36,697 nucleotides of DNA from Planctomyces sp. (GTDB taxonomy: Bacteria > Planctomycetota > Planctomycetia > Planctomycetales > Planctomycetaceae). Positions 898 through 36,697 of the stretch are shown here, piece after piece. A program made the position numbers and the translations under genes. The stretch spans positions 1-36,697 of the forward strand of contig SYJG01000143.1 of NCBI GenBank assembly GCA_005798445.1, written 5' to 3'. Under the pieces are notes generated by a model. It did not search any database and was not told where the DNA came from. It saw only the letters and a list, made by a program, of their open reading frames with translations. Every line of letters starts with the position of its first letter. Positions within the stretch are counted from its first letter, which is position 1.

Positions 898-970
898 GGG
901 AACACTAATCCGCGCTAATCTCCGCTAATTCTGGCTGGATTCGTGTTAATTAGCGTCGATTAGTGTTCCC
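898..970. repeat. Inverted repeat between E1 and E2 genes
   Basis: Arms at 898-919 and 949-970 match at 20 of 22 positions (outer ends GGGAACACTAATC / GATTAGTGTTCCC), around a 29-base AT-rich centre that repeats the word CTAAT. The arms do not form obvious hairpins of their own, unlike most other palindromes here. It ends 38 bases before the E2 start codon, so in mRNA it would fold just upstream of aceF and could alter E1:E2 stoichiometry; that effect is inference. Confidence 0.75.
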
Positions 971-1008
971 AAGTTTTTCAAACCCAAAATTCACGAGCTG
1001 ACGCCGAC

Positions 1009-2319
1009 ATGGCCATCGAATTCAAACTGCCTGAAGTTTCCGACGGCGTGAAGACCGTTGATATCGCCGAGATCAAAGTCAAAGCGGGCGATGTTGTCGC
1101 GAAAGGCCAAGTGGTCATGGACCTCGAGACCGAAAAAGCGGTCGTCGAGCTGGAATGCCCGCACGCGGGGACCGTGGTGAAGGTGCTTGTTTCCGCTGGC
1201 CAGTCGGTGGCGATTGGGGCTCCGCTGATGAGCATTGAAGCGACTGCTGGAGTACCGCCTTTAGGCGGTGCCGCTGCGCCAACAACCCCAGTCACTCCGG
1301 CGAAGCAAACCGTACAGACCGACAAACCGATTGCCATTTCAATCGACTCAATCGCGAAATCTGACAGTCCACCGCCTAAAGGCGGGACTCCAACCGACAC
1401 CCGTCCGCCCGCGCCCGCCGGCCCCGCGACTCGGCGACTCGCACGCGATCTCGGCGTCGATCTGCATCAAGTCACAGGCACTGGTCCTGGCGGACGGATC
1501 ACGCAGGAGGACGTGCAGAACTACGTCAAAAACATCCTCGAAGGCCGAGCGTCCGTTGGAGTTCCGCCTTCAGGCGGTCTCCTTGCGACTCCCGCATTAC
1601 CCGACTTCAGCCAGTTCGGTTCCATCGACCGTCAGCCGCAGAACAAGCTCGGCAAGGTCGCAGCGGCGAACCTCACCGTTTCATGGCAAACCATCCCGCA
1701 CGTCACGCAGCACGATCTGATCGACATCACCGATCTCGAAGAAGCTCGCAAACGTTTCGGCGAGTCGCTCGGCAAGAACGGCCCGAAGGTGACGATGACT
1801 GCCATCGTGATGAAGGCACTGATCCCGGCGCTCAAAGCGTTCCCACACGTCAACGCCAGCCTCGATGCCTCCAAGGGCGAGCTAGTCCTGAAACAGTACT
1901 ACAACATCGGCTGTGCGGTCGATACGCCCAACGGCTTGCTGGTCCCGGTCGTCAAAAACGTGGACCAGAAGAGCATCGTCCAAATCGCCGCCGACCTCGC
2001 CGACCTCGCCGCGCGTGCGAGAGAGAAGAAGCTCAAGCCGGACGAAATGTCCGGCGCGACATTCACGGTCACGAACCTCGGCGGCATTGGCGGCACGGCC
2101 TTCACGCCAATCGTCAACTGGCCCGAAGTCGCGATCCTCGGCCTGAGCCGCAGCCGCACCGAACTGAAACTCCACGGCGGAGCAGTCATCGAACGCCTGA
2201 TGCTCCCGCTCTCCCTCAGCTACGACCACCGAGTCATCAACGGAGCCGACGGAGCCAGATTCGTGGCCAAACTCGGCAGCCTGTTGAATGATTTCTTCTC
2301 GCTGTTGGCTGAGGCTTAA
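1009..2319 (+). CDS. aceF: Dihydrolipoamide acetyltransferase, E2 of pyruvate dehydrogenase
   Basis: This 436-aa protein is the core of the pyruvate dehydrogenase complex and transfers acetyl groups from lipoyl-lysine to CoA. Residues 1-78 form one lipoyl domain with the lipoylated lysine in DLETEKAVVEL (Lys43). Residues about 140-178 are the peripheral-subunit-binding domain (ATRRLARDLGVD, then GTGPGGRITQEDV). Residues about 205-436 are the catalytic domain, ending with the active-site motif SYDHRVINGADG. A single lipoyl domain is the short architecture. The interdomain linkers are not the usual Ala/Pro-rich swinging arms: three hairpin repeats are translated within them (residues about 80-128 and 182-191, giving GVPPLGG, PPPKGG and GVPPSGG). 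No strong Shine-Dalgarno sequence precedes the ATG. E1 lies upstream; E3 follows after a three-gene insert. Confidence 0.95.
   Translation: MAIEFKLPEVSDGVKTVDIAEIKVKAGDVVAKGQVVMDLETEKAVVELECPHAGTVVKVLVSAGQSVAIGAPLMSIEATAGVPPLGGAAAPTTPVTPAKQTVQTDKPIAISIDSIAKSDSPPPKGGTPTDTRPPAPAGPATRRLARDLGVDLHQVTGTGPGGRITQEDVQNYVKNILEGRASVGVPPSGGLLATPALPDFSQFGSIDRQPQNKLGKVAAANLTVSWQTIPHVTQHDLIDITDLEEARKRFGESLGKNGPKVTMTAIVMKALIPALKAFPHVNASLDASKGELVLKQYYNIGCAVDTPNGLLVPVVKNVDQKSIVQIAADLADLAARAREKKLKPDEMSGATFTVTNLGGIGGTAFTPIVNWPEVAILGLSRSRTELKLHGGAVIERLMLPLSLSYDHRVINGADGARFVAKLGSLLNDFFSLLAEA
1248..1392. repeat. REP-like doublet inside aceF linker
   Basis: Two inverted units, 1248-1270 and 1370-1392, match at 22 of 23 positions. 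Each carries the head GGAGT followed by a hairpin (CCGCC, loop TTTA, GGCGG). The 99-base spacer encodes Ala/Pro/Thr/Ser-rich linker sequence. Both units are in frame and encode GVPPLGG and PPPKGG, between the lipoyl and subunit-binding domains. Confidence 0.85.
1556..1580. repeat. Single REP-like hairpin inside aceF linker
   Basis: A third unit of the same family as 1248-1392: head TTGGAGT, stem CCGCC/GGCGG, loop TTCA instead of TTTA. It lies in frame and encodes GVPPSGG in the linker between the subunit-binding and catalytic domains. No inverted partner was seen nearby. Confidence 0.8.
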
Positions 2320-2320
2320 C

Positions 2321-2350
2321 TTTGGAGTGCGGTGTGTCAGCGCCGCTTTG
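2321..2350. repeat. Left hairpin unit flanking the DUF4268/toxin-antitoxin insert
   Basis: It begins right after the aceF stop. The unit carries a GGAGT head and a hairpin GCGGTG / CGCCGC around the loop TGTCAG. It matches the reverse complement of 3953-3982 at 27 of 30 positions. One difference is a full compensatory pair change (G-C here, A-T there) and another is a wobble in the stem. Together the two units bracket three genes. Confidence 0.75.
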
Positions 2351-2368
2351 GATTCTTGAGACCGCATC

Positions 2369-3307
2369 ATGCCCATCGGAAAACTCGAAAGCGTTGAACT
2401 TCGCAAGTTGTGGCAGCACGAGGAGTATGACTTTTCCAAGTGGCTTTCCGAGAACCTAGACTCGTTGGCCGAAGCCGTCGGCATCACGCTCGCCGAGCCG
2501 GAACGGGAAGTCCGCGTTGGTTCATTTGAAGTTGATCTCGTGGCAGAGGATGGGAATTCCAATCGAGTCATCATCGAGAATCAGCTTGAGGCATCCAACC
2601 ATGATCATTTAGGAAAAGTCATTACCTACCTGACCAATCTCGATGCGAAGACGGCAATCTGGATCACGAAGTCGCCTCGACCAGAACACGTCAAAGCGAT
2701 CGCTTGGCTTAACGAAACAACACCCAGCGATGTCGCGTTCTTTCTGGTCAAGCTTGAAGCCTATCGCATCGGGAATTCCGACCCGGCTCCATTTTTCACC
2801 GTCATCGTTGGTCCGAGCGCGGAAGCCAAAGACATCGGCGAGAAGAACCGAGAGATGGCGGAACGACATGTCTTGCGCCTGAAGTTTTGGGAGTCGCTAC
2901 TGGCTCGTGCGAAGTCCAAAGGAGTTCTCTGGCACGCCTCGCGATCGCCAGGCCGAGACATGTGGCTCTCGGTCGGGGCTGGCCGTACGGGGTTCAACTT
3001 TAACTATCTCATGTGGATGACTGACGAGAGCGCAGTCGAGCTTTACTTGGACACTGGCGAGGCTGAACCAAACAAGGCGACCTTTGACATACTGTTCGCA
3101 AAGCGAACCATCATCGAAAAAGCTTTCGGCGGCGAACTTCAATGGGAGCGAAAAGATGAGAAGCGAGCTTGCCGAATTCGTCATACAATCTCACTCGGCG
3201 GTTTGACGTGCGGTGAGGACAAATGGCCGACTATTCAAGATACGATGATTGACGCAATGGACCGATTGGTGAAAGCCCTTAAGCCGCACATTGCAGAGTT
3301 GCCATAA
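2369..3307 (+). CDS. DUF4268 domain protein, PD-(D/E)XK nuclease-like
   Basis: This 312-aa cytosolic protein has an N-terminal module of about 150 residues resembling the restriction-endonuclease-like fold: RVGSFEVDLVAED, then VIIENQLEASNHDHLGKVI, which gives the spaced Asp ... Glu-x-Gln of degenerate PD-(D/E)XK enzymes, followed by TAIWITKSPRPEHVKAI. The C-terminal part (about 165-305) fits the DUF4268 domain seen in many standalone proteins of this type. The biochemical activity is not established; nuclease or DNA-binding function is inferred from the fold. It starts at the first in-frame ATG after the left hairpin unit. It is followed within 13 bases by an antitoxin-toxin pair, and all three genes interrupt the E2-E3 gene order, which suggests a transferred cargo. 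Confidence 0.75.
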   Translation: MPIGKLESVELRKLWQHEEYDFSKWLSENLDSLAEAVGITLAEPEREVRVGSFEVDLVAEDGNSNRVIIENQLEASNHDHLGKVITYLTNLDAKTAIWITKSPRPEHVKAIAWLNETTPSDVAFFLVKLEAYRIGNSDPAPFFTVIVGPSAEAKDIGEKNREMAERHVLRLKFWESLLARAKSKGVLWHASRSPGRDMWLSVGAGRTGFNFNYLMWMTDESAVELYLDTGEAEPNKATFDILFAKRTIIEKAFGGELQWERKDEKRACRIRHTISLGGLTCGEDKWPTIQDTMIDAMDRLVKALKPHIAELP

Positions 3308-3320
3308 TCAAAGGTGAAAC

Positions 3321-3940: not shown

Positions 3941-3952
3941 GAACGAAACAAT

Positions 3953-3982
3953 CAAAGCGACGCTGACACGTCGCACTCCAAA
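3953..3982. repeat. Right hairpin unit flanking the DUF4268/toxin-antitoxin insert
   Basis: This is the inverted partner of 2321-2350. Read on the minus strand it has the GGAGT head and a perfect 6-bp stem GCGACG/CGTCGC around the loop TGTCAG. It ends 9 bases before the lpdA start codon, so it also sits where the lpdA ribosome-binding region would lie. Confidence 0.75.
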
Positions 3983-3991
3983 GAGGATGAA

Positions 3992-5446
3992 ATGTCACAC
4001 GCGGAAATTGTGGTGATTGGTGCTGGTCCGGGCGGGTATCCGGCGGCGTTTACGGCTGCGGATCATGGGAAGAAGGTGGTGCTCGTCAATGAGGAGCAGA
4101 ACCCTGGCGGCGTCTGTTTGCAGCGCGGGTGCATTCCGTCGAAGGCATTGTTGCACGTCGCGAAGGTGATTCATGAGGCTCGCGAGGCGGCTGAGCATGG
4201 TGTGTCGTTTGGTCCGCCGAAGATTGATCTCGCGAAGTTGCGGAACTTCAAGAATGGCGTCATCGGGCAACTGACCGGCGGCATTCAGAGCTTGTGCAAG
4301 GCTCGTGGAGTGACGCTGGTGCAGGCTCGCGCGACGTTCGCGAACTCGAACACGTTGAACCTCGCCAAGCCGGACGGTTCGACCGAGCAACTGACATTCG
4401 ACAAAGCGGTGATCGCGACCGGCTCGCAGCCGGCGATGCCGCCGATCTTCGCGATTGGCGATCCGCGCGTGATGGACTCGACGGGAGCACTCGCGCTGGA
4501 GGACATCCCGAAGAAGCTGCTGGTCATCGGCGGCGGCTACATCGGGCTGGAGATGGGCTGTGTGTACGCCGCGCTCGGCAGCGAAGTCACGGTTGTCGAA
4601 GCGTTGCCGACGATCCTCGCCGCCGCTGACCGAGACCTTGTGCGGCCGTTGCAGAAGCGGCTCGAAGGTCAGTTCAAGGCGATTCACGTCAACACGAAAG
4701 TGCTCAGCCTGACCGCCAGCAAAGCCGGCATCGTCGCCGAACTCAGTGGGATAGGCTTCCAGCCTGTCGGTGCTGAGACAAAAGACGACAGGCTGGAAGC
4801 CTATCCCACGAAACAAACCTTCGACCGAGTCCTCGTCTCCGTCGGCCGCAAGCCAAACAGCAAGAACCTCGGCCTCGAAAATACGAAGGTCCAAATCGAC
4901 GAGAAGGGCTTCCTCAAGATCGACCGCTGCTGCCGCACGGCCGATCCGAACATCCTCGCCATCGGCGACGTCGCGGGCGAACCGATGCTGGCTCACAAAG
5001 CCACGCGCGAGGCGAAAGTCGCCATCGAAGCGCTCGTCGGCGAACCAGCTGAGTTCGACAACATCGCGATCCCCGCCGTCGTCTTCACCGACCCGGAACT
5101 CGCGTGGTGCGGCCTGACCGAAACCGAAGCGAAGGCTCAAGAGCGTGACGTGAAAGTCATCCGCTTCGCCTGGGCCGCCAGCGGCCGAGCCCAATCGCTG
5201 GCTCGTACCGAGGGCCTCACGAAACTGATCATCGAAAACAAAACCGAACGCATCCTCGGCGTTGGCATCGTCGGAGCCGGCGCAGGCGAGCTGATCTCCG
5301 AAGGCGTGATCGCCGTCGAAACCGCCGCCGTCGCCCGAGACCTCGCCGACAGCATCCACCCGCATCCGACGCTGTCCGAAACTTTGATGGAGGCGGCGGA
5401 AGCATTCATCGGCCAAGCGACGCACATGTACCGGCCGCCGCGGTAA
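3992..5446 (+). CDS. lpdA: Dihydrolipoyl dehydrogenase (E3)
   Basis: This 484-aa flavoenzyme reoxidises dihydrolipoyl-E2 with NAD+. Its features are the FAD-binding [10 protein letters not shown] near the start, the redox disulfide in [13 protein letters not shown] (Cys-x4-Cys), the NAD-binding [10 protein letters not shown], the second FAD motif [17 protein letters not shown], and the catalytic His-Glu pair in HPHPTLSE near the C-terminus. Length is close to the family norm of about 465-475, the excess being a 21-codon palindrome translated within the NAD domain (residues about 251-273, after GIVAEL and before TFDRVLV). It probably forms a surface loop, since the flanking strands are intact. 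The gene belongs with E1 and E2 upstream, although a three-gene insert intervenes. Confidence 0.95.
4746..4809. repeat. Palindromic element inside lpdA
   Basis: Two perfect 24-base arms (4746-4769 and 4786-4809) surround a 16-base centre. Each arm contains a small hairpin AGGCT-TCC-AGCCT. The element is read in frame as part of the E3 NAD-binding domain and encodes IGFQPVG ... RLEAYPT. The identical arms suggest recent insertion or ongoing correction. Confidence 0.9.
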
Positions 5447-5458
5447 GTGATCCTTAAA

Positions 5459-5523
5459 GTAGTCACGTTCACCAGAACGTGGGTTTCCTCGCGAATGGCC
5501 CACGCTCTGGAGAGCGTGGCTAC
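5459..5523. repeat. REP-like doublet downstream of lpdA
   Basis: Arms 5459-5483 and 5499-5523 match at 21 of 25. Both begin with GTAG when read outside-in, the classical REP head, then form their own hairpins (CACGTTC-ACCA-GAACGTG on the left, CACGCTCTGGAGAGCGTG on the right). One stem pair has changed T-A to C-G, keeping each hairpin. It could end lpdA transcripts, but no T-run follows. Confidence 0.85.
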
Positions 5524-9878: not shown

Positions 9879-9993
9879 TTGGATTCTCCGTCGTAGCGTT
9901 CAAGGCCGCATCACAGTAATCGCTCGATCTCATGGTGGGGAAGACTGTCACTGAATTTGCGTGAATCTCAGCCTTGCGGTGGTTCAACGCCAA

Positions 9994-10025: not shown

Positions 10026-10070
10026 CTGGGACTCCTGTCGTCAGTGATTCATCCACCTATGCTCTGCCGA

Positions 10071-16339: not shown

Positions 16340-16358
16340 GGAGTTTCCAATTTTCGGA

Positions 16359-16441
16359 GGATGGCCGCCCTCGGCCGTCGCCTCGTGATTTCAGATTTCA
16401 GATTTCAGATTTCAAAACCCAGACGGCCGAGGGCGGCCATC
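16359..16441. repeat. Palindromic element with GATTTCA microrepeats
   Basis: Perfect 20-base arms (GATGGCCGCCCTCGGCCGTC and its complement, 16360-16379 and 16422-16441) surround a centre containing four tandem copies of GATTTCA. The right arm ends one base before the stop codon of the esterase-like gene. The same element, with related 7-base microrepeats, lies in frame inside the gene at 23105-26029. Confidence 0.9.
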
Positions 16442-18820
16442 TTACGGATTGATCAGCCACTTCGCCGGACCGTCTCGCGTTGGCGTGCCGGGTGTCAGTC
16501 GATTCCAGCCATCGACGGTTTGTTCCTGAATCACACGACGGTCAGAGCGATCGGGTTCGATAAAGTCGGGAATATCGCCGATCGTTAGTGCTCCGGGAAT
16601 CAGACTGGCATGGGATGTCAGAACCAACGAGTCCGCCAGCAGCGATCGCCAGCTCGACAAACCGCCGACGGTGTAGATCGCGGTGACGTCCTCTTCAATG
16701 AGTCCGGCCAGCAGCGCGAGCAGTGGAGCTTGCGGCTCCGACGGCGCGGGGAGCGCCGAATCGTCATCGCGAGGCTGACGAAACCGGGAGTTCGGCGAAT
16801 TTGGCGGCGTGAGCGATTCGCCCCACAGCATCAAGGCTCGGCCTTTGAATTGTGTTCGCAGCCAGGCCAGGGCGACTCGGACGTCTTGCAGTTGTTGGCC
16901 GAGCAGCGGTCGGCCAAGCATCTGCGCCGTCGAGGAGGTCGAGGTTGCTGAACTTCGCCGGCCGTGATTGTCGCCGAGGGTCGATTCGCCAATGCCGATC
17001 GGATCGACCAGACAGACGGCCGCACCGCGTTCGAGCAGCGCGGCGATGTCGTCCGCCCGTTCCTTCAACAGCCGAGTTTTCCCCTGCGAGCAGATCGCGA
17101 CGACAACGTGGGGCACGTTTTTAACGTGCCCGTCTGGTTCGGGCACGTTGGAAACGTGCCCCACGAGCAACTGCACCGCCACTCGATCACGCGGCGAGCG
17201 TGACAACACGACGGATGTCACCGCGATCGAACCAACTCGTTCGACACGAACGTTCTGATGCACAAGCTGCGGCCCAGCAGCGTCGATGCCGAGCAACCTC
17301 GCCCAGCGGCGACAAAGCTCGCGCCGATGCTCGGCGTACGACGGCTGATTCGTTTGAGCGGTCATGTTGTCCGCCGCCAACCGATCGGCCAACTCGGTCG
17401 TCATCTGCGAGAGCGACTTCGGTTTCAGCTCGGCTTTGAGTTCCGGAGTCCAGCAGCGCAGCCGATCGGCGGGCAGACGCGCGCTGAATTCGGTCTCCGG
17501 CGTGACCTCGATGCCGAACCACGAGCGGAACGCTTCGTGAATGCGGACGCGATGTGTCTTGCCGATGTGCGTGCAGTGCGTGTCGGTCGGCGACGAGCCG
17601 GTGACGGCTCCTTGGCCGTGCGTGAACGCGAGGAAGTCGGCGTGGTCGTAGAAGCCGAAGACCGTTTGCAGCCGCTTCCAGACGGGATCGCGGTCTTGGT
17701 CCCACTTGAACTCGTGAGCGTAGGCCAGCCGGCGCGGCGCGATGCCTGCAACGATCGCCCACGGCAGGAAGCCGCCTGCGGCCGAGTCGCGCAGGTTGCG
17801 AGTCGATTCCCAACTGCCGCTGCCGGCGTAGTTGAACGACCTCTCGGCATCGTCCGGGAGCGGGTGCCGAGTTTCCGGCTGCGGCCCGCCGAAGTTGAAC
17901 GGTACGACCGCCGCGAATCGTTCGTCGAGTGCGCCGGTCACAGCCGCTGGATCGCCGCCGCCAGCAACCGCTCCGAGCAGAACCAATCGCTTCGGATCGA
18001 CTCCCGGCTGAGCCAGCAGCACGTCCGCTCCACGCATCATGTCCCAGGCCATCCAGCCGACGAGGCTCTCGCCGACCAAACTGAGCTGCATCGCGCTGTC
18101 GTAACGAAAGTAATAGTCGGCATGTCCGACTCGGTACGGCTTGTCGAAGTCGGCGGCGGTCGCGAACGGATGCTGCCGCCGCTCGCCGTGACCGACTTGA
18201 TCCATGACCAGTACGACACAACCGGCTCGTGCCCAGGTCATCCCCATGTCTTGCAGTTCGCCGTGTTCCTTCGGAGTGTGATGCGCGTGACAGATCAAGA
18301 TTCCGGGCAACTTTGGAATGCTGGCGAGCGGGGCAGCGTCAGCTCCCCGGTCGTTGAATTCGCCACACCGGGGGGCTGACGCCGCCCCGCTCGCCGACCT
18401 CGTCGAGGGGCGATACCGATTCGCCGAGACCCACCAGCCGGGGCGGCTCTCGAAGAGGATGTTCTCGATGACGAAGCCGTCGCCATCGAACGTCGCGGCG
18501 ACTCGCACCGGGACCGACTGCGGCGGCTCCGGCCACGCACCGAGCGAGGCTCTCAGTGCGTCGAGTTTTTTCTTGCGGAAGCGTTCCCAGTCCTCACGCG
18601 TCTTGATCTGCCGCCACTCGTCCGTGCTACGATCGTTGGCGTTCCTGAGCCGCTGCTGTTGCTGATCCCGAACCTGACTGGCAAAGGCTTCTCGTTCCGC
18701 AGCGGGGACAACGTTCGTGTCGAGCGTTCGCAGCGTTTTGATGAGCGGCTCGTCAGCATTGGCCGCTCCGAGACCCAGGCTCAACAGCACGCAAGCTGGG
18801 GTCAGGTCTTCAAATTTCAT
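16442..18820 (-). CDS. Exported tandem alpha/beta-hydrolase (acetyl-xylan-esterase-like), first domain probably inactive
   Basis: This 792-aa protein has a hydrophobic N-terminus (ACVLLSLGLGAANADE) that looks like a signal peptide, though its N-region is acidic because the first codons lie in a repeat (18798-18924). Domain 1 (about 90-460) resembles the acetyl-xylan-esterase/Abhydrolase_7 group: GILICHAHHTPKEHGE, VVLVMDQVGHGERR, then an elbow LVLLGAVAGGGDPA where the usual nucleophile serine position is alanine, and HGQG further on. Domain 2 (about 540-790) is a second alpha/beta-hydrolase-like fold (LLERGAAVCLVDPIGIGES, LMLWGESLTP) that retains a serine in a GES elbow. Two palindromes are translated in frame (residues about 142-166 and 552-571). 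Polysaccharide deacetylation is a plausible role, inferred only. Confidence 0.75.
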   Translation of the reverse strand: MKFEDLTPACVLLSLGLGAANADEPLIKTLRTLDTNVVPAAEREAFASQVRDQQQQRLRNANDRSTDEWRQIKTREDWERFRKKKLDALRASLGAWPEPPQSVPVRVAATFDGDGFVIENILFESRPGWWVSANRYRPSTRSASGAASAPRCGEFNDRGADAAPLASIPKLPGILICHAHHTPKEHGELQDMGMTWARAGCVVLVMDQVGHGERRQHPFATAADFDKPYRVGHADYYFRYDSAMQLSLVGESLVGWMAWDMMRGADVLLAQPGVDPKRLVLLGAVAGGGDPAAVTGALDERFAAVVPFNFGGPQPETRHPLPDDAERSFNYAGSGSWESTRNLRDSAAGGFLPWAIVAGIAPRRLAYAHEFKWDQDRDPVWKRLQTVFGFYDHADFLAFTHGQGAVTGSSPTDTHCTHIGKTHRVRIHEAFRSWFGIEVTPETEFSARLPADRLRCWTPELKAELKPKSLSQMTTELADRLAADNMTAQTNQPSYAEHRRELCRRWARLLGIDAAGPQLVHQNVRVERVGSIAVTSVVLSRSPRDRVAVQLLVGHVSNVPEPDGHVKNVPHVVVAICSQGKTRLLKERADDIAALLERGAAVCLVDPIGIGESTLGDNHGRRSSATSTSSTAQMLGRPLLGQQLQDVRVALAWLRTQFKGRALMLWGESLTPPNSPNSRFRQPRDDDSALPAPSEPQAPLLALLAGLIEEDVTAIYTVGGLSSWRSLLADSLVLTSHASLIPGALTIGDIPDFIEPDRSDRRVIQEQTVDGWNRLTPGTPTRDGPAKWLINP
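17108..17164. repeat. Palindromic element inside the hydrolase gene
   Basis: Arms 17108-17131 and 17141-17164 match at 22 of 24. Each arm is itself a hairpin GGGCACGTT/AACGTGCCC, and both mismatches fall in its three-base loop (TTT versus TCC). It is read in frame as VGHVSNVPEPDGHVKNVPHV, between the two hydrolase domains or at the start of the second. Confidence 0.9.
18323..18395. repeat. REP-like doublet inside the hydrolase gene
   Basis: Arms 18323-18352 and 18366-18395 match at 27 of 30. They share the outer word GGCGAGCGG and a GTCA loop with the elements at 19485, 35761 and 36670. Two of the three differences (A-T versus G-C) are a compensatory pair in the arm's own stem. It is read in frame as part of the first hydrolase domain. 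Confidence 0.85.
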
Positions 18821-18924
18821 TTTTGGCTCCGCGATTCATCACTGACTCTGTTCTCACACCGCCATCCCAAACCAAATCGATCTCCATTCGCAGTGCCAAA
18901 AATGAAATTTGAAGACCTGACCCC
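18798..18924. repeat. Perfect 30-base inverted repeat supplying the hydrolase start codon
   Basis: Arms 18798-18827 and 18895-18924 are identical over 30 bases, with a 67-base centre. Each arm carries an outward-facing ATG and encodes MKFEDLTP. The left arm provides the start codon and first eight residues of the hydrolase; the right arm gives the same start to a short plus-strand ORF that has no other support. Confidence 0.92.
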
Positions 18925-19484: not shown

Positions 19485-19587
19485 GGCGAGCGGCTGGGCG
19501 TCAGCCCACCGAGTCCGTCGTAATTCTGTAATACTCACGGGCGGTCAAATTCCATTGACTCGGAGGGCTGACGCCCTACCGCTCGCC
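19485..19587. repeat. REP-like doublet between RidA and PQQ-propeller genes
   Basis: Arms 19485-19515 and 19557-19587 match at 28 of 31, with outer word GGCGAGCGG and hairpin GGGC-GTCA-GCCC. Two of the three differences swap T-A for A-T at paired stem positions, keeping each hairpin. It occupies nearly the whole intergenic space and ends 29 bases before the next start codon. Confidence 0.88.
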
Positions 19588-20852: not shown

Positions 20853-20870
20853 CCATCAAACCCCTTCCTC

Positions 20871-20972
20871 CCACCGGGCTTGCTCCGGTGGCTCGTTGGC
20901 CTTCGCACTACTCTGCCGATCAAACGATCGAGTAGTGCGGAAGCCAATGAACCACCGGGGCAAGCCCGGTGG
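20871..20972. repeat. Long imperfect palindrome between PQQ-propeller and dehydrogenase genes
   Basis: Arms 20871-20912 and 20930-20972 match over about 43 bases with five differences. The outer part of each arm is its own hairpin CCACCGG ... CCGGTGG, and one difference lies in its loop. It begins 19 bases after the stop at 20852 and ends 32 bases before the next start, so it could separate the two transcripts or act as a stable mRNA 3' end. Confidence 0.85.
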
Positions 20973-21004
20973 GGAAACTAAAAACAAAGACCAAAGGAAA
21001 CGAC

Positions 21005-22021: not shown

Positions 22022-22168
22022 GGGTGGTACCGTTTGCTTCAAGCGGTGTGCCGAAGGCATTGGAAACTGAAAGTTGGAGCGAGTCCTCAAGCAACGTCGA
22101 TTTTCCAAACGTCGGCAACCCTTAGTTTCCAATGCTGCGCACACAGTTTGAAACAAGCTGTGCCACCC
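22022..22168. repeat. REP-like doublet upstream of the CPBP protease gene
   Basis: Outer arms 22022-22051 and 22139-22168 match at 24 of 30 and inner words GCATTGGAAACT/AGTTTCCAATGC are perfect. Each outer arm forms its own hairpin around CTT/TTT; one stem pair changed C-G to A-T between arms and another position changed T to C opposite G. Most of the intergenic space is this element. Confidence 0.8.
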
Positions 22169-23104: not shown

Positions 23105-26029
23105 TCACGGACGCGGAACCTCGAAATGCCGCATCTGTCCGTCGGCGGTGAGCAGCACGAATTGGTCGAGGTGTGGAGTCGCCAGCACCGCCAGCGGTCG
23201 TGACCCTGTCCCAGGTGTCTGAGCGCGCAGCCGCAAGTTGTGCCCATCCACGTTGAAGACTTCGCAGGTCGTCCGATCCGCGACGACCAAATGTCCTCGG
23301 CGAGTGAACGTGGCTACCGGGTGCGAGTAATCGTCCGACAGCCGAGCGGAGTGAATCTCACTCCCGTCGTCCCACAGAATTTCGCCTCCCGACTCAAACG
23401 TCAGCACGAGACGAGTCACACGCTCGAACGTCATTCCGGCGAGCGACTGAATCGCTCCCCGATCCGACGTCCAGCCTCCGTCGAAGTGCGGCATCAGCAA
23501 TTTTTCCCCCTCGCCGACGTATTTGCGACCGGAAGAGTCCACGAAAAACGGATTCGGCCAGACGCTCGGTTCATCGCTTGCCGAGTGATTGATCTGCTGC
23601 GTGTGCAACAGCAGATCGGACGTCTCGCTGTATCCTTCGACGATAAAGCACTCCGGCTCATCACGCAGCACCCACACGATTCCCGGCGTTCGGCAGATGG
23701 CGACCGTATTCGGTTGTAGCCAAGTGGGCGGGCGATCGAAGTCGAGTCCCCGCGCGCTCGATTGCCAGCGACGCACGGTCTTCTGAATTTTGCATTGCTG
23801 CCGAACGACCAACGGACCGTCGTCCTCGGCGGCGACCGACAGCAGCAGCGGATCGCCCAGCGGTTCCCCGAAGTTCGGCAGCGCCAAATCCGAAGGCGGC
23901 AACGTCTGCGACCAATCGCCCCGGACCACGACCTGCGACGATCCGCGTGTCCCCAGAGCAAACCAATACTGCTGGCTGCTGGTGGCGGTCAGCCACTCGA
24001 CATCGCCGCGCAATTGCCATTGCCGCAACAACCGCAGAGGCGGCTTCGAGGGATGCGCTGATTTGTGAAACGGGAACAACTTCGGCGTGGGGGCAACTCG
24101 CTCCGCCAGGAAGCGTCGCGTGTCGCGAGCCAGCAAGCGGTCTTCGGGAGCCAGTGCGACGATCGACTTCAGCAACCGCTGATGTTCCGACGCGGGCCGA
24201 GTCTTCCAGTGCCGAGCGGTCAGCACGCGTGCCGAGTCACCCGCCAACTGTCGTACGCCGTCGTCCGGGTACGTCGTCGTGACCTCCGCGAGTTGCTGCA
24301 CCAGCAATGCCGGAGACAACAACACCGTGACGGACTCGTCAGCATCGCGCCAGTGTTCGATCCGCCGACTCGCTTCGGGATGATTGCCCATCCGCGCCAG
24401 CAGTCGAAACGATTCCGACAAACACGCCTCAGCCTGTATCGACCGCTGCCAACCGGCGTCGAGCAGGTCCAACGCTGCGTCCTGATTCGCCAGCTTCGTC
24501 TCCGTCAGCTTGGCCGCCGCGAGAAAGTTGTTCGATTGCATCAGTTGCACACTCGCCTGTGACCACCGCTGCCGCGCTTCGTCCGGTTGTTCGAGCTGAG
24601 CGAACAAGTCTCCCGCCTTCTCGAACATCTTTTGCTCGTCGTAGATTTCGATCGCTTCCGTCAGCAGTCCCCCTTGTTCCAAGCAGCGTGCCGCATCGAG
24701 CGGAAGGTGTAGCTTGTCGCGATAGAGCACTGCTGCGTCGCGCCAGTGTTTGCCGGCGGCGAGCGCGTTCGCGGCGGCGGCGAAATCGTGCAGCAGGTGT
24801 CCGAAGATGTACGCCGCTCGGCGATGCCGGCCGAGTTGCAGCTCCCGGTTCGCCAGCTCGCGATACCGAGCCATCAATTGCAGCGACTGGTCGTTCGGGA
24901 TCGACCAACGATCCGCCGGACCTCCGCCCCGCAGTTGATTCAAGTCGAAATTCACCGGCCGTTCGGCCAACTGATCCGACGGACTCGCCGTTCCACGATG
25001 CGGTTCATCACCGAACGGGATCGCGAACTTCAAGCCCTCGTCCGGGTTCTTCTCCAGCAGCTCCATCAGCCGCCGCACCGCCTTTTGCCGAGCCGGCTCC
25101 AACGCCTGCCGCATCCGCTCGACCATGTTCTGCATTGCCTTCTCGAGCGCGTGACTCCAGCCTGACTCCCCCGCTGCGCCGGAACCGCGACGTCCTGAGC
25201 CGCTCGCTGCCCCGCCGGTCAACGCTCGCAATCCGCGACCGATCGCTCCGGCCACCGAGCCGACCGCTCCCACCATCGCCGCCCCAGCCGCCGCCGCACC
25301 GAGCATCGCGCGCTGTCCAAGTTTCGATAACGCTCCGTCCGATGGTTCGTTGGTTCGACGCGGCAACTCCGACCAATCGTCGCCGCGCGAGCCGATGTCT
25401 TCACGCCCCTCATCGAGCAGCGATTCCAGCGACGGCACGACGACCGGCAACACCGCCGTCAGTCGCGAGTTGAACGAGACGCCCGGCCGAGCCTGATTCC
25501 AGTCCGCCGCGCGCCGCTGCGGAGCCTGCAACAAATCCGCGACGCGCAAACACTGCGATTCGTCAAACGTGACGAACCCCGCCGTCGGATGCCACACGCA
25601 AATCGACTTCTCGTGAGGCTCCTCGTCGGTCGGCAACAGGTCGCGCCAATCCCGTTCATCGAGCGGCGGCACAAACGTCGCCTCAACCGGCACGAACAAT
25701 CGGCCGGCGATGCAGCCGTAAGGAATCGCCACACCACTCGTAGGATGGCCGCCCTCGGCCGTCCGCTGTTTTAAGGTTTGAGATTTGAGATTTGAGATTT
25801 CATAAGGACGGCCGAGGGCGGCCATCCTACTTTCCGTCACCAACACTCCGCATGGTGTCCGATCCGCCGCACCGCACGGCACGATCCACAGACGCAGCGG
25901 AGCCAACGGCACGCCCCACCGAGTCAGTTCGTCCAACCATTCGCGCGAAGTTTCTCCCGGCACGAACCACGCGACGGCGTCGCGCTGTCGGCTCGGCGAA
26001 TACCGCATCTCGACCGGAACGCGGATCAT
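23105..26029 (-). CDS. bpX-type protein of a MoxR-vWA-beta-propeller ternary system (TPR-like helices plus propeller)
   Basis: This is a 974-aa protein. The start at 26029 is chosen because its ATG overlaps the TGA of the upstream vWA gene (ATGA); the open frame runs further but overlaps that gene. Residues 1-300 form an N-terminal module (MIRVPVEMRYSPSRQRDAVA, TSREWLDELTRWGVPLAPLR) interrupted in frame by a palindrome at about 67-96. A Gly/Ala-rich stretch near 235-290 (AAAAGAAMVGAVGSVAG) may contact membrane or be a flexible hinge. Residues about 350-560 are TPR-like helices (HRRAAYIFGHLLHDFAAAAN, EQGGLLTEAIEIYDEQ). The C-terminal third is a beta-propeller (VATFTRRGHLVVADRTTCEV). This layout resembles bpX6 proteins of ternary conflict systems, where it is proposed to act as sensor or scaffold. 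It is the last gene of the operon. Confidence 0.75.
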   Translation of the reverse strand: MIRVPVEMRYSPSRQRDAVAWFVPGETSREWLDELTRWGVPLAPLRLWIVPCGAADRTPCGVLVTESRMAALGRPYEISNLKSQTLKQRTAEGGHPTSGVAIPYGCIAGRLFVPVEATFVPPLDERDWRDLLPTDEEPHEKSICVWHPTAGFVTFDESQCLRVADLLQAPQRRAADWNQARPGVSFNSRLTAVLPVVVPSLESLLDEGREDIGSRGDDWSELPRRTNEPSDGALSKLGQRAMLGAAAAGAAMVGAVGSVAGAIGRGLRALTGGAASGSGRRGSGAAGESGWSHALEKAMQNMVERMRQALEPARQKAVRRLMELLEKNPDEGLKFAIPFGDEPHRGTASPSDQLAERPVNFDLNQLRGGGPADRWSIPNDQSLQLMARYRELANRELQLGRHRRAAYIFGHLLHDFAAAANALAAGKHWRDAAVLYRDKLHLPLDAARCLEQGGLLTEAIEIYDEQKMFEKAGDLFAQLEQPDEARQRWSQASVQLMQSNNFLAAAKLTETKLANQDAALDLLDAGWQRSIQAEACLSESFRLLARMGNHPEASRRIEHWRDADESVTVLLSPALLVQQLAEVTTTYPDDGVRQLAGDSARVLTARHWKTRPASEHQRLLKSIVALAPEDRLLARDTRRFLAERVAPTPKLFPFHKSAHPSKPPLRLLRQWQLRGDVEWLTATSSQQYWFALGTRGSSQVVVRGDWSQTLPPSDLALPNFGEPLGDPLLLSVAAEDDGPLVVRQQCKIQKTVRRWQSSARGLDFDRPPTWLQPNTVAICRTPGIVWVLRDEPECFIVEGYSETSDLLLHTQQINHSASDEPSVWPNPFFVDSSGRKYVGEGEKLLMPHFDGGWTSDRGAIQSLAGMTFERVTRLVLTFESGGEILWDDGSEIHSARLSDDYSHPVATFTRRGHLVVADRTTCEVFNVDGHNLRLRAQTPGTGSRPLAVLATPHLDQFVLLTADGQMRHFEVPRP
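25741..25829. repeat. Palindromic element with GAGATTT microrepeats inside the bpX-type gene
   Basis: Perfect 24-base arms (25741-25764, 25806-25829) surround a centre with tandem TTTGAGA copies. The outer arms are the same sequence as the element at 16359-16441. Here it is in frame and adds about 30 residues near the N-terminus of the 974-aa protein. Confidence 0.92.
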
Positions 26030-28872: not shown

Positions 28873-28902
28873 GCGAACCTCAATGGAACGTTGAAAAGTG
28901 AG

Positions 28903-28972
28903 ATAACGGCGATCGGCTTTCGGCTCACGGCGTTCGGCCGAATGCCGTGAGCCGAAAGCCGACAGCCGTTAT
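28903..28972. repeat. Palindrome overlapping the end of a ternary-system gene
   Basis: Arms 28903-28936 and 28939-28972 match at 31 of 34. The TAA stop of the gene at 28969-29694 lies inside the outer end of the right arm (TTA of CGTTAT), so this element sets that protein's C-terminus. It separates this gene from the vWA gene and could tune expression of the downstream pair. Confidence 0.85.
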
Positions 28973-29694
28973 CCCACTTCTTCCTCCGACGAACGCACAC
29001 TCGATCGACTCGCCGCGACGAACTGTTCGCTGCGAACGATCTCACACACCTCGCACGACCACAACAGGATGTCATCCGTCCCCAACCCAAACAGGTCACG
29101 CACCACCGCCGCATCCACCAGCGGTGACCAAGTCCAGCCGGCGGCGACAACGATTCCCGTTCGTTCGACGAAGCGTTCTCCCACAAGCGGCGGCAACGGC
29201 GTGCCGCGAATCACGGCTCGGCCGTCAGCAGCCAGCGCGAATCGCCAACGATCCAGCCGGACTTGCGGAGCCGTCACCGCGTACTCAGACCAGATCGTTC
29301 GGGGCGTCAGCAACACGTTCGGCTCCGACATCTCGTCCGACGGCACGAGCCGCAACTCAACTCGCGGCACCGGCTCCGCCAATTCCCCCGGCCAGATCGA
29401 CGCCGGCCGTTCCGGCTGCAGCCACTTCGCGAGCGGTTGCCAGTCACCGCGCGGCAATGTTGCCGACGGCACACGAGCATCCCGCTCACGCAGTTGTTTT
29501 TCGTCCGCGTCGATCCAGAAGAAAGTCCCGTTGGCGATCCCGCGCAATGTGACCTCGAATTTGTCGGAAAACGAATCGCCGCGGACCCACACGTCGCTCC
29601 CATCCGCGCACACGCTCAGGCCGGGGACATGCCACAAGCGGCTCAATGAGCTGACATGTTCGAGCGGCAATCGCAGTGTCCAGAGAGCGGTCAT
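28969..29694 (-). CDS. Small bpX-type accessory protein of the ternary system
   Basis: This 241-aa protein sits seven bases after MoxR, in the place of a bpX accessory gene. It is beta-rich with segments LWHVPGLSVCADGSDVWVRG, NGTFFWIDADEKQLRERDA, RGDWQPLAKWLQPERPAS and ILLWSCEVCEIVRSEQFVAA. No catalytic motif, signal peptide or membrane segment is visible. Which of the numbered bpX families it belongs to cannot be settled by eye. The stop codon lies in a palindrome and the last residues (RSSEEEVG) are charged and look unstructured, so the protein may have been trimmed or extended by that insertion. Membership of the system is inferred from gene order and spacing. Confidence 0.65.
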   Translation of the reverse strand: MTALWTLRLPLEHVSSLSRLWHVPGLSVCADGSDVWVRGDSFSDKFEVTLRGIANGTFFWIDADEKQLRERDARVPSATLPRGDWQPLAKWLQPERPASIWPGELAEPVPRVELRLVPSDEMSEPNVLLTPRTIWSEYAVTAPQVRLDRWRFALAADGRAVIRGTPLPPLVGERFVERTGIVVAAGWTWSPLVDAAVVRDLFGLGTDDILLWSCEVCEIVRSEQFVAASRSSVRSSEEEVG

Positions 29695-29701
29695 GGCGGC
29701 G

Positions 29702-30940
29702 TCAGCGTCCTCCGACTTGCGGCCACAGCGCCGACAGCTTGCGTTCCAGAAACGATCGAGCTTGCTGATCCGCCACCCACTGACAGCGACCCGCCAGCAA
29801 ACCGATTCGGTCTCGCAAGTACGATTTCTCGTGAGCGGACAATTCGGGATCGTCCAGTTGCTCCGCGATCCGCTCCAAATCGCGAGCGAGACTTTCGGGA
29901 TCGGGCCGCTCCCCCGACTTCGCGCGCGGATGATCGGCGGGAGAGGCCGGGCCAGACTTGCTCAGCCGGTCATTGACGATCGTGGCGAGCACCTCTTGTT
30001 GCTCTTCCGTGTCCCAGATGTAACGGAAGACCCACAAGTCCGAGACGATCGTCTGCATCCGTCCGCAGAGCAGCGCGCTCGCCGCGATTAGCCGCTGCAA
30101 CTTGACCGCTCGCCGATCCGAAACCGCAATCCCCGCATGACGCAGCCGCTGCACCAGCTCGACCGACGCCGCGCGCACGTCACTCAAGTCCACGCGACCG
30201 AGCAACGCCTGAATCCGACGAATATCCTCGACACCAACCCGAAGCGTCAGCGCGGGCGAGCGGGCATCCGCGTCGCCTGTTCTGTTTGCCGCGGCCCGAC
30301 GCTCGCCCTCGCTGACGCTTCGGGTTACGGGGTTGCGAGCGACCTCGAACCGCCAGCCGGCTGTCAACACGTCGGCGAGCTGTTCGCTCGATACGTTATC
30401 GCAGCGGACACGCAGCAGAAAACGGTCGAACAGCGCGCCGAGGGCATCGTCTTCCGGCAGCCGATTGCTCGCGCCGACCACCATCAGCGTCGGCAACGCA
30501 CGAGTCTCACGGCCGCGCCGAAAGACACGCTCGTTGAGCACCATCAACAGGCTGTTGAGAATCGCGCTGTTCGCGTTGAGCAACTCATCCAAGAAGACGA
30601 ACGACGCCTCCGGCAGCATCCCCTCGGTGTTCGTGACCAAGTCCCCGTCGCGCAGCTTGCGGATGTCGAACGGGCCGAAAAGTTCGTTCGGCTCGGTGAA
30701 CCGCGTCAGCAGGTAATCGAAGACGCGACCGTCGATGCGTCGCGACAGCTCCTGCACGATCGCGCTCTTCGCGGTTCCGGGCGGGCCGAGCAGAAACAAG
30801 TTCTCGCCGCCGACCAGCCCGACCCCCAGCAGGTCGATGATCTCATCCTTGCCGACAAACGCCGCTTTCAACGGCGCGAGCACATCCGTCGTCAATCGTT
30901 TCGCCAATTCGAGCGTGTCGTGTGTTTCGGTTTCGGTCAT
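29702..30940 (-). CDS. MoxR-family AAA+ ATPase of the ternary system
   Basis: This is a 412-aa cytosolic ATPase. Walker A is LLGPPGTAKSAIVQEL (near 54-70) and Walker B is SFVFLDELLNANSAILNSLL with the MoxR-type LN(A)NSAILN helix; the sensor 1 region is LMVVGASNRLPEDDALGALF and the arginine-finger segment is FDRFLLRVRCD. MoxR ATPases act as chaperones that remodel vWA-domain partners, and a vWA gene lies two genes downstream. A repeat (30236-30326) is read in frame as residues about 205-235 (VTRSVSEGERRAAA ...), just before the helical lid. That segment is not found in standard MoxR proteins and probably forms a loop. The ATG at 30940 is accepted; the upstream gene ends 43 bases before. Confidence 0.9.
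   Translation of the reverse strand: MTETETHDTLELAKRLTTDVLAPLKAAFVGKDEIIDLLGVGLVGGENLFLLGPPGTAKSAIVQELSRRIDGRVFDYLLTRFTEPNELFGPFDIRKLRDGDLVTNTEGMLPEASFVFLDELLNANSAILNSLLMVLNERVFRRGRETRALPTLMVVGASNRLPEDDALGALFDRFLLRVRCDNVSSEQLADVLTAGWRFEVARNPVTRSVSEGERRAAANRTGDADARSPALTLRVGVEDIRRIQALLGRVDLSDVRAASVELVQRLRHAGIAVSDRRAVKLQRLIAASALLCGRMQTIVSDLWVFRYIWDTEEQQEVLATIVNDRLSKSGPASPADHPRAKSGERPDPESLARDLERIAEQLDDPELSAHEKSYLRDRIGLLAGRCQWVADQQARSFLERKLSALWPQVGGR
30236..30326. repeat. Palindromic element inside the MoxR gene
   Basis: Arms 30236-30261 and 30301-30326 match at 25 of 26 (AACCCGAAGCGTCAGCG ... and complement) around 39 bases. Translation gives the peptide word TRSVSEG, which from memory recurs in unrelated planctomycete proteins, as expected for a dispersed element. 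It shares the GCGTCAGC core with the other REP-like families here. Confidence 0.88.
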
Positions 30941-32358: not shown

Positions 32359-32372
32359 TCGCGAGGTGTGAC

Positions 32373-32759: not shown

Positions 32760-32762
32760 ATC

Positions 32763-33680: not shown

Positions 33681-33686
33681 GCTGTC

Positions 33687-34379: not shown

Positions 34380-36637
34380 GCGGCATTTCGACGAAACAAC
34401 GATCGTGGCGACACACCCTCTGCCTCGCGGCCTTGCTGACGACGGCTGCGGTGACGCTGTGGATGGTGGGTTTTGCGATCATTGCGGGCATTGTCGAGGA
34501 GGTTTTCAGTGAACAAGAACCGCGATTCATCACGCAGCAGTTTCTGTTTCGAGACGACGGCTTGCCAATTTGGAAGACGACCGACCGCCGCAAGGGCTGG
34601 GAGTGGGCCGAGTACCACAATCTCGATGGAGAGCCGGTCGAGATGACGGTGAAAGACGAGCATCCGCAATTGGTGACGCTCGTCGATTCGCGGGTCTGGC
34701 GGCGTCCGAGGCGACAAAGTTGGAAATCACGCGTTGTGGCAGTTGACGAGCAAAGTGTCCCCAATCATCCGGGGACATCGACGTGGTTCTTTCGAGACAA
34801 TGGCCGGCGCGGCTTTTTGGTGGCGATGAACAATGTCACGAAGCGCGAGGTCGCGTACTTCGGAATCAAAGGCTTCACGACCACCATCCCCTCGGAAGAG
34901 GATTGGTTCACCACATTTGACGGTGGTGAGCACCTCGACATTGACGGCCCCGACCATTACCGCAGTTGGAACGTCGGCTTCCCCTATTCTCAACAACATG
35001 TTGACGCGAGCACGCATGAGTTGGCGTATGCGCCATTGTTTGTCGAGCCAACCGGTCGGCGCGTCTTCGCGATCGACTTTCTCCATCGAACGATTCGAGT
35101 TGTCCACGAGGGTGAGCCAGTTCTGTCGGCCAACCCGATTCGCATGCGGAAAAAGGGGACACCACAACAGGTCGTCTTGCGGCTGCGTGACTCGCTGCGG
35201 ATTGTCGAATTGACGAACGACGGTGTCGGAGCCACCGAAGTCATTCCCATTCCAGAAAACTTGCAGCGAGCCGCCGGATTGCAATGGGTCAAGGCCGCGA
35301 ACGGCCATGTGCTCGTGACGCTGCAATCGGGAGGCTGGCACCTGACGACGTTGGACGCGGATCACCGAGTCGTCGGGGAACGGCAGGTTGCCTATCAACA
35401 TGGCCAAACGCAGCCACCGGCTGCTAGCGAGATCACGTTATTCCTGCTCGTAACGCAATCACCCGTCTTGGTGGATTTCGTTGTTTGGATTTCGACACGC
35501 GAAGGGAGTCACACTCAAGCCATCGACACTAGCCGTGTCCGAGAGTTCGGACTCGAATGGCCAACGTCTCGCGACATGGAGTTTTCTGAAGCGACGGTTC
35601 CGTTGGCGATCCTGCAATTGTCGGCCGTGTTGTGGTCGGTGATGGCGGTGCGTCGATTGCGGAAATTCTCGGCGTCGCGGCAAGACCAGTGGTTCTGGGG
35701 AGCGTGGACGTTGTTGTTCGGTGCTCCGGGCTATCTCGCATTTCGAGTGCATCGCGAATGGCGAACGGTGGGCGTCAGCCCACTGGTCACGTCGATGAGG
35801 CCGTCGAAACTGGACGAGACCGCTGAAGCAACCAGGAGGCTGACGCCTCCCGTTCGCGCGAAGCGGCATCTGGTGACGGCACTCGCTTCGGTCTACGGAA
35901 AATGTCTTGATGCCGGTGAGGACTTGGGAGCGGGCGTCGCCGCACGAGTCGGTTTTCCTGCCAGCCACACGGCGTTGGTTCTAAAGGAGTGCCGACTGGC
36001 GGTGGGAGCCGCGCTCTTGGCCTGTCTGGCCTACACGGTGGTGGTGGCTCGGTTGGTGGGGCTGAAGGGCTTCGGCATGCTCAGCGACTTCGTCACGCAG
36101 ACGAGTGCCACGCCATTCATCCATGACGGATTCCTCGGACCGTTTGGCACGGTGGGATTCCTGTTGGCCGCCGGGTTGGCGATCTGGCAATCGGTGGCCG
36201 AGTCGCGTGGCGAGGCGTGGCTGTTCATGCTCTCTCGACCGGTCAGCCGCCGAGCGGTCTTGATGAGCAAACTGTTGATCGGCTTGCTGGTGGTGACTGT
36301 CTGCACGGCGCTGCCGATCATTGTCTACGCGGCCTGGGCCTCACGTCCCGGATCGGTCGCCGCACCGTTCGAGTGGGGCATGACCGAGATCGCGTGGCGG
36401 TATTGGGCGGCGCTGACGTCGATCTATCTGGCGACGTTACTGACGATGCTGCGACCAGTTCGGTGGCTGGGGACTCGATTGTTGCCGGTAATTGCCGCCA
36501 TCGGTTGGCTGCCGGTGCGCGAGGCCCTCGGAGTTTGGTGCTGGCCGGTCTGGTGGGAACTGCTCGCCGTGCTGGTGATCAACGTGTGCCTGGTGAGCAG
36601 CCTGTTGTTGACCGTCCGAGAAAGAGAGTACCCGTGA
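34376..36637 (+). CDS. ABC-2 type permease fused to a large propeller-like extracytoplasmic domain
   Basis: This 753-aa protein begins with a membrane segment (TLCLAALLTTAAVTLWMVG, about residues 16-36), then about 365 residues of beta-rich soluble sequence (for example RVFAIDFLHRTIRVVHEG, QVVLRLRDSLRIVEL, GHVLVTLQSGGWHLTTLD) that read like a propeller facing the periplasm. A second membrane region (about 405-460) is followed by a translated palindrome (about 462-494). The last 230 residues are a full ABC-2 permease with RPVSRRAVLMSKLL, homologous to the whole preceding gene. The large outer domain could bind substrate or sense it. The start overlaps the previous stop. The gene ends at TGA 36635-36637, followed by a partial repeat at the window edge. 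Confidence 0.8.
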   Translation: MSGISTKQRSWRHTLCLAALLTTAAVTLWMVGFAIIAGIVEEVFSEQEPRFITQQFLFRDDGLPIWKTTDRRKGWEWAEYHNLDGEPVEMTVKDEHPQLVTLVDSRVWRRPRRQSWKSRVVAVDEQSVPNHPGTSTWFFRDNGRRGFLVAMNNVTKREVAYFGIKGFTTTIPSEEDWFTTFDGGEHLDIDGPDHYRSWNVGFPYSQQHVDASTHELAYAPLFVEPTGRRVFAIDFLHRTIRVVHEGEPVLSANPIRMRKKGTPQQVVLRLRDSLRIVELTNDGVGATEVIPIPENLQRAAGLQWVKAANGHVLVTLQSGGWHLTTLDADHRVVGERQVAYQHGQTQPPAASEITLFLLVTQSPVLVDFVVWISTREGSHTQAIDTSRVREFGLEWPTSRDMEFSEATVPLAILQLSAVLWSVMAVRRLRKFSASRQDQWFWGAWTLLFGAPGYLAFRVHREWRTVGVSPLVTSMRPSKLDETAEATRRLTPPVRAKRHLVTALASVYGKCLDAGEDLGAGVAARVGFPASHTALVLKECRLAVGAALLACLAYTVVVARLVGLKGFGMLSDFVTQTSATPFIHDGFLGPFGTVGFLLAAGLAIWQSVAESRGEAWLFMLSRPVSRRAVLMSKLLIGLLVVTVCTALPIIVYAAWASRPGSVAAPFEWGMTEIAWRYWAALTSIYLATLLTMLRPVRWLGTRLLPVIAAIGWLPVREALGVWCWPVWWELLAVLVINVCLVSSLLLTVREREYP
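35761..35857. repeat. REP-like doublet inside the long permease gene
   Basis: Arms 35761-35787 and 35831-35857 match at 23 of 27. All four differences are two compensatory pairs within each arm's own hairpin (T-A and G-C on the left, G-C and A-T on the right) around the loop GTCA. The family is the same as 18323, 19485 and 36670. It is in frame, between two membrane regions. Confidence 0.9.
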
Positions 36638-36669
36638 ATACAATGACCGCATCTCGGTCGCAAAAAAAA

Positions 36670-36697
36670 GCGAGCCGGAGGGCGTCAGCCCCCGGAC
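36670..36697. repeat. Partial REP-like unit at the window end
   Basis: GCGAGCCGGAGGGCGTCAGC and the following CCCCGGAC repeat the unit of the 18323/19485/35761 family, with the hairpin GGGC-GTCA-GCCC. It starts 33 bases after the permease stop. The partner arm, if any, lies beyond the window. Confidence 0.75.

Follow-up and report, generated by a model that had tools for sequence, protein, structure and literature searches.

REPINs in a Planctomyces genome segment and a Y-x3-Q transposase clade associated with their commonest family

Introduction

The stretch of Planctomyces sp. DNA analysed here (36,697 nucleotides, contig SYJG01000143.1; hereafter the window) carries REPINs of about ten families. 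We propose that these elements are copied and kept by HUH/Y1 transposases, and that the commonest of them, family A, is served by a clade of class-3-like TnpA proteins with a Y-x3-Q tyrosine motif and not by a GTAG-type RAYT; we give this reading a probability of about 0.8. What is new is that the commonest family is tied to a class-3-like clade having its own active-site spacing and, probably, its own foot, and that one gene has been hit repeatedly. The data show dispersed copies, orientation, within-arm compensation, transposase association in relatives, and presence or absence at orthologous sites; that the enzymes bind, cut and move the elements is inferred.

REPs and REPINs of the GTAG type, with their RAYTs, have been reported from PVC bacteria such as R. 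baltica and O. terrae (PMC3733652). In-vitro work on REP recognition has dealt with GTAG-type enzymes (PMC8266576). Searches of open-licence papers brought up no report of the family A sequence or of the Y-x3-Q clade that we recognised.

Results

Hairpin pairs in the window and in its genome

The genome of the window comprises 7,963,935 bases in 553 contigs and is 90% complete. Comparisons were made in a sample of 1,247,816 of these bases (81 stretches, the own-genome sample), partly picked for family A matches, so that per-genome estimates drawn from it are biased for this family. Inverted-repeat pairs (arm ≥20, identity ≥80%, spacer ≤160) numbered 13 in the window, against 1 in total over 20 dinucleotide-model shuffles, and repeat finding at other settings gave 19 inverted pairs. 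The same criteria yielded 340 pairs in the own-genome sample. The elements are listed in Table 1. No Rfam family matched in the window.

Table 1. Repeat elements of the window, with arm matches in the own-genome sample
Positions	Strand	Element	Context	Matches in sample
898..970		inverted repeat CACTAATC.., not a clear REP		
1248..1392		GGAG-headed hairpin pair (GGAGTACCGCCTTTAGGCGG)	in frame, linker of 2-oxoacid dehydrogenase acyltransferase	
1556..1580		single arm, same family as 1248-1392	same acyltransferase gene	
2321..2350	+	GGAG hairpin, left border of 1.6 kb segment		none outside window
3952..3983	-	GGAG hairpin, right border of 1.6 kb segment		none outside window
4746..4809		REPIN, arms GTGGGATAGGCTTCCAGCCTGTCG	in frame, dihydrolipoamide-dehydrogenase-like gene 3992-5446	
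5459..5523		GTAG REPIN, GTAGTCACGTTCACCAGAACGTGG / GTAGCCACGCTCTCCAGAGCGTGG (basis: sequence)		3 and 7
16355..16446		REPIN, arms GATGGCCGCCCTCGGCCGTC	intergenic	12 (8 outside window)
17107..17165		REPIN, arms GTGGGGCACGTTT..AACGTGCCC	in frame, ORF 16442-18820 (-)	26-33
18323..18395		family A REPIN, subtype GGCGAGCGGGGC..; convergent arms 18323-18351 and 18367-18395	in frame, 792-aa ORF 16442-18820 (-)	
18798..18924		TIR pair GGGGTCAGGTCTTCAAATTTCATTTTTGGC, not a REP		
19485..19587		family A REPIN; arms 19485-19515 (GGCGAGCGGCTGGGCGTCAGCCCACCGAG) and 19557-19587	intergenic	
20870..20973		44-nt inverted repeat, outer part a hairpin (CCCACCGGGCTTGCTCCGGTGG)		6-8
22022..22168		REPIN-like, inner inverted repeat 22057-22135 (basis: sequence)		none outside window (22057)
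25740..25830		REPIN of the 16355 family, head GTAG	in frame, bpX3 ORF 23105-26452 (-)	13
28896..28979		42-nt palindrome without spacer, weak arm hairpin		none outside window
30236..30326		family K REPIN (AACCCGAAGCGTCAGCG..)	in frame, bpMoxR gene 29702-30940 (-)	
35761..35857		A-type REPIN, head GCGAAC; arms 35761-35787 and 35831-35857	in frame, 753-aa ORF 34376-36637	no other copy of 35761 arm

A sequence-only reading of the window had described at least a dozen of its palindromes as pairs of short hairpins in inverted orientation, and this is borne out by the excess over shuffled sequence. Exceptions are the TIR pair 18798-18924 and the longer or weaker inverted repeats 898-970, 20870-20973 and 28896-28979, which have no clear REP arms. 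The hairpins at 2321 and 3953, which had been taken together, stand in inverted orientation 1.6 kb apart and bound a gene segment; they do not form a REPIN. The coexistence of several families in one segment was correctly seen. Dispersed copies were found, although copy number is not high for all families (Table 1). The GTAG or GGAG head fails as a general rule: it is not the head of the commonest family. Where such heads occur they mostly face outwards; among the 222 hairpin pairs of the sample whose left arm folds alone, GTRG or GGAG was outer in 71 and inner in 5. Between two genes, at 9990-10029, the window also has a lone 17-bp hairpin resembling a terminator.

The single arm is the conserved unit

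An arm was considered to fold alone if it formed at least 6 bp at −6 kcal or below, with no G-U. Left arms did so in 10 of the 13 window pairs and in 222/340 sample pairs, compared with 115/340 after arm shuffling. With the left arm by itself defining the structure, the right arm differed in 162 of the 222 foldable pairs. In the 1.25 Mb of the sample, 40 paired positions were changed on both sides and still Watson-Crick, against 2.0 in permutations, while positions changed on both sides and broken numbered 2 (4.1 expected). One-sided breaking changes were reduced to 56 (152.2 expected) and changes to G-T to 24 (31.2 expected); differences at unpaired positions amounted to 206 (174.3 expected). 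The 40 compensated events were spread over 32 elements, and 39 were counted when the structure was taken from the other arm. Within the window only, 4 compensated pairs were found against 0.1 expected, along with three one-sided pair-breaking changes (at 1248, 20870 and 30236) and one further change to G-T.

Compensation thus takes place within the arm, and it is the hairpin of the single arm that is conserved, as had been proposed in place of the long palindrome. The matched changes underlying that proposal were recovered by computation at 35761 (two pairs), 19485 (T-A/A-T) and 18323 (one pair), and by reading the letters at 5459-5523 and 22022-22168; the arm difference of 17108-17164 does lie in the loop. 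The added claim that differences fall in loops or in matched pairs stands as an excess of compensated changes, but the 56 one-sided breaking changes show that they are not confined there.

Family A

Family A, to which the elements at 18323, 19485 and 35761 belong, has the head GGCGAG/GCGAAC and the loop GTCA. Its core is present in 313 copies in this genome, with a single match for the reversed control. A 27-mer form counted 169 copies here, 0-16 in 11 genus mates and 10 in genome G018. Copies of GCGTCAGCCCNCCGAG numbered 121 in G147, 53 in G142, 14 in G007, 13 in G136 and 10 in G018, and none was found in G181, G178 or G043. The repeats probably break the assembly, as contigs start near family A arms more often than expected: this was so, within 100 bp, for 12/67 sampled contigs (the arm density of the sample, which was partly picked for the family, predicts 0.6) and for 3/20 consecutively numbered contigs.

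Using the core and the head (at most 2 mismatches in the head), 105 arms were collected from the sample. The head was GGCGAGCGG in 80 and GGCGAGCCG in 10 of these, in a search that required the head and so left other heads unsampled. The GT[AG]G foot is absent from the family; CGAG or CGAA is located 5' of the hairpin. Nor are these CGTC-tagged REPs, as CGTC lies inside GCGTCAGC, at the top of the stem and in the loop, and is not terminal and unpaired. Among 69 arms in one register, the variable stem pair was A-T in 52, T-A in 13, C-G in 1 and unpaired in 3. It was thus Watson-Crick in 66/69 arms (96%), for a shuffled mean of 64% and a maximum of 80% in 1000 shuffles. The base left unpaired in the stem was C in 59 arms, T in 9 and A in 1. 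This base may be a recognition feature, because E. coli REPs need an unpaired place in the stem for their activity (PMC8266576).

All 29 neighbouring family A pairs within 150 bp were convergent. A long palindrome, acting as a cruciform or as the TIRs of a cut-and-paste MITE, could be the selected unit instead, as it is for 18798-18924, and the arms of a pair are usually similar. The 13/29 family A pairs with identical stems are uninformative on this point. However, where a difference breaks the pairing between arms, compensation within the arm is 20 times as frequent as chance predicts, and 47 of the 105 family A arms stand alone in the sample, which makes such a unit very improbable for the other elements. 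In one family A pair (L162:2956) the first arm carries A/A and its partner T/T, the pattern that inversion of the loop-to-loop segment between an A-T and a T-A pair would leave.

Transposase genes in the genome of the window and in its relatives

Eight Y1_Tnp matches were found in the own genome. Three of these genes (L004, L005 and L007) carry RAYT motifs and are flanked on each side by GTAG REPINs of their own, belonging to families that are not in the window. For a fourth, L006, a GTAG REPIN was seen downstream only, the upstream side not being properly delimited. None of the eight has family A on both sides. L004 was rejected as the family A cognate, the nearby A pair being about 750-800 bp off, beyond the gene's own GTAG pair. 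The IS200-like gene L070, whose CCAGGGGCGTCAGCCCCTGG repeats lack the head, was rejected as well. No Y1 motif was seen in the segment between the two family A pairs of the window. IS200-like Y1 genes (Y..Q..HH; L001, L002, L070, L096-L104) often have their own long compound palindromes as borders, for instance of GCCCAGGGC types.

The 12 genus genomes contain 91 Y1 matches, and all 91 loci were read for window motifs. A gene of G007 (L116) has class-3-like motifs and A-type arms at both ends; a gene of G006 (L122), also with class-3-like motifs, has family K arms. Y1 genes lying between matching units, which the sequence-only reading had suggested looking for, thus exist in the own genome for GTAG families absent from the window, and in relatives for the window families A and K. 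At E≤1e-6, a class-3-like profile built from six such proteins had matches in 107/170 genomes from a single planctomycete family, 79 of the 107 lying below 1e-30. Matches cover 42/58 genera; the weaker matches may be other Y1 classes. The profile found no class-3-like gene in this genome's assembly. A laxer one gave four weak matches, all at places that the RAYT profile matches as well.

A clade of class-3-like genes goes with family A

Seventy class-3-like loci were compared, 30 being the best-scoring and 40 hand-picked (20 of them for the long form), hence not a random set. Of the 68 with at least 150 bp on both sides, 57 share at least 16 nt between flanks, when 2.4 are expected from swapped flanks, a control that includes related loci. 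The tree splits the 70 genes into 23 and 47 with a support of 100/100. Strict A-type arms stand beside 16/23 loci of the smaller group (the A-clade) and 0/47 of the others, strict K-type arms beside 15/47 and 0/23. The tyrosine motif follows the same division: Y-x3-Q in 23/23 A-clade genes, Y-x4-Q in 47/47 other class-3-like genes. Loosening the A-type pattern raised the first count to 22/23; this is partly fitted, because the pattern was loosened after the loci had been seen, and the fair figures are the strict 16/23 and those from new loci.

For these, a scan of named genomes was made, in which the best 80 of 356 relatives were kept, 78/80 being planctomycete by name. It gave 55 new loci with enough flank. 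A-type arms were found at 31 with the loose pattern, fixed beforehand, and 20 were strict; 24 loci had neither. Controls gave 1/360 for shuffled flanks and 1/50 for far flanks.

The association extends to the elements of the window. The 19485 arm equals a flank of L223 over 30/30 nt, and the 19557 arm is 96.7% identical to a flank of L220. The first arm of the 35761 element equals flanks of L221 and L217 over 27/27 nt, and the second arm of the 18323 element is found, over 27 nt at 96%, beside the class-3-like gene L208. The family K element at 30236 is matched over 27 nt at 96% on both sides of the class 3 gene L184. Another class-3-associated repeat (AGCACGACGCGCCAGCGAGTGG type; L125, L139) has a near relative repeated in this genome outside the window.

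Since the association is positional only, family A might merely collect beside class-3-like genes, at shared safe sites, with no action of the enzyme on it. Safe sites would hardly account for the specificity, as no A-type arm was found within 500 bp of 40 RAYT loci, nor at 29 IS200-like loci, and none (strict) at the 47 other class-3-like loci. They would hardly account either for the sub-clades of the A-clade, which carry matching arm subtypes. We regard mere collection as quite unlikely, and retain service of family A by the Y-x3-Q clade.

The A-clade, an HUH/Y1 group whose genes have family A arms at their flanks in sister genera, is sister to 'class 3' TnpA. Its proteins show H-x-H by pattern in 22/23 and the tyrosine in 23/23. 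A predicted enzyme model (28 named rows) has a mean pLDDT of 87.4 and is weak at residues 22-35. In a fold search with this model, all 30 PDB chains at E≤0.001 were Y1 transposases, and 4er8, the E. coli TnpAREP with a REP hairpin, aligned over 161 columns at 3.1 A with 12% identity. In a sequence-only PDB search, designed proteins ranked above the best real relative, which at E 4e-4 was an IS200-type chain of which no stretch passed on its own.

Cognates of the other families

RAYT-profile Y1 loci also share repeats between flanks (at least 16 nt in 51 of the 62 with both flanks, 1.6 expected, again from swapped-flank controls that include related loci), and none of the 62 carries the other window families as its own. 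For the 16355/25740, 4746, 5459, 1248/1556, 17107, 2321/3953 and 20870 elements, no cognate was found in 161 Y1 loci, nor in 66 RAYT-profile loci, many of which are also among the 161. At least seven window families are without a located cognate. An element similar at 90% to 22022-22168 lies inside the RAYT locus L143, and the TIR pair at 18798 recurs, without a mismatch over 33 and 30 nt, in repeats that surround the Y1 gene L126 of a genus mate.

Elements inside genes

Eight of the listed elements fall within predicted reading frames; the 18798 pair overlaps with the opening codons of such a frame. Pfam domains were found in four of the element-bearing genes (acyltransferase, dehydrogenase, bpMoxR and bpX3); the 792-aa and 753-aa ORFs had none. 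Genes of the MoxR-vWA-beta-propeller ternary system (bpX0, bpX1, bpX2, bpX3 and bpMoxR; window 23105-30940) carry or adjoin three elements.

The 4746 element is absent in 10/11 genus orthologs, and the 11th (L247) holds a different REP, identical over 25 nt to the REP of the RAYT locus L141. Two unrelated REP families have thus hit the same coding spot in sister species. The 18323 and 17107 elements are absent in 7/7 genus orthologs. At 17107, the net gain is 27 of 59 nt, less than the element, so some host sequence was lost or replaced. The 1556 arm is absent in 11/11 genus orthologs, a GTAG-headed pair related to 1248-1392 is present in 4/11, and the bpMoxR element (30236) is absent in the one ortholog found. 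Intragenic REPs were already known (PMC3733652).

These insertions bear on whether the hairpins are kept for a role in RNA, as terminators or mRNA stabilisers, compensation then reflecting RNA folding and not a transposase. Stem compensation alone cannot separate DNA from RNA, and many elements are between genes. Yet several are inside coding frames, and an RNA role does not predict that family A follows one transposase clade. We consider it unlikely, and favour maintenance through the transposases.

A variable segment at 2320-3991

The segment between the hairpins at 2321 and 3952 is absent from that place in 11/11 genus mates. The acyltransferase-dehydrogenase gap is 82-142 bp long in 7/11 of them, and 426-750 bp, with other small ORFs, in 4/11; by eye, these ORFs look HicB/HicA-like in G007 and MazF-like in G002. 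In the window, the segment has a DUF4268 gene that matches the PADLOC candidate PDC-S11 (E 9e-123); another ORF there resembles a ChpB-type toxin weakly, below the cut-off (E 0.0045).

Discussion

A REPIN consists of two REP hairpins, convergent and with heads outside; in the mechanism we propose, HUH/Y1 transposases would recognise one strand of a single hairpin. Recognition by the Y-x3-Q enzyme would rest on the GGCGAG/GCGAAC foot combined with the stem irregularity and the GTCA loop, in the way that E. coli TnpAREP recognises GTAG and a stem bulge. Because recognition would act on each arm, the arms would drift apart by compensated changes. Family A would have spread through this lineage recently, with insertions between genes and also within them where the reading frame stays intact.

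Known systems resemble this one in part. As in GTAG REP/RAYT systems (PMC3733652), the hairpins are short and in many copies, with convergent dimers, alternative complementary stem residues, copies in genes and several families per genome; unlike them, family A has no GTAG head and stands beside none of the 40 RAYT loci. With E. coli TnpAREP (PMC8266576, PDB 4er8) the A-clade shares the fold, and family A the combination of a foot with an unpaired stem base, whereas foot, loop and active-site motif differ. The 18798-18924 pair starts with GGGGTCAG and in this recalls the TIRYTs with GGGGWSAS TIRs (PMC3733652), the pair, equal to the L126 repeats, not being a REP.

The closest description is that of class 3 TnpA with CnGA-foot hairpins (PMC6006769), found likewise in Planctomycetes, where genes with HUH and Y motifs have atypical hairpins of high copy number next to them. 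Family K is associated with class 3 proper: its arms contain CCGA, its genes have Y-x4-Q, as do all 47 non-A loci, and strict K arms stand beside 15 of these. The A-clade differs by Y-x3-Q, and the CGAG/CGAA foot of its repeats may be a second difference. Going by the published motif it falls outside class 3, although its anatomy suggests that it works in the same way. We lean towards a wider view, held with less confidence than the reading above: that the Y-x3-Q clade, together with family A, forms an undescribed lineage of REP-making transposases in its own right, spread across Planctomycetes, with a GGCGAG/GCGAAC foot and a stem irregularity, sub-clades tuned to their own arms, and repeats that also serve as in-frame protein inserts.

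Class 3 was earlier counted as 24 proteins, in under 0.3% of species (PMC6006769), against matches to a class-3-like profile in 107/170 genomes from a single planctomycete family (E≤1e-6) here. These natural pairs of enzyme and repeat have a foot other than that of the GTAG type, and gene flanks agree with dispersed copies letter for letter; the recognition rules of class-3-like enzymes are therefore directly testable.
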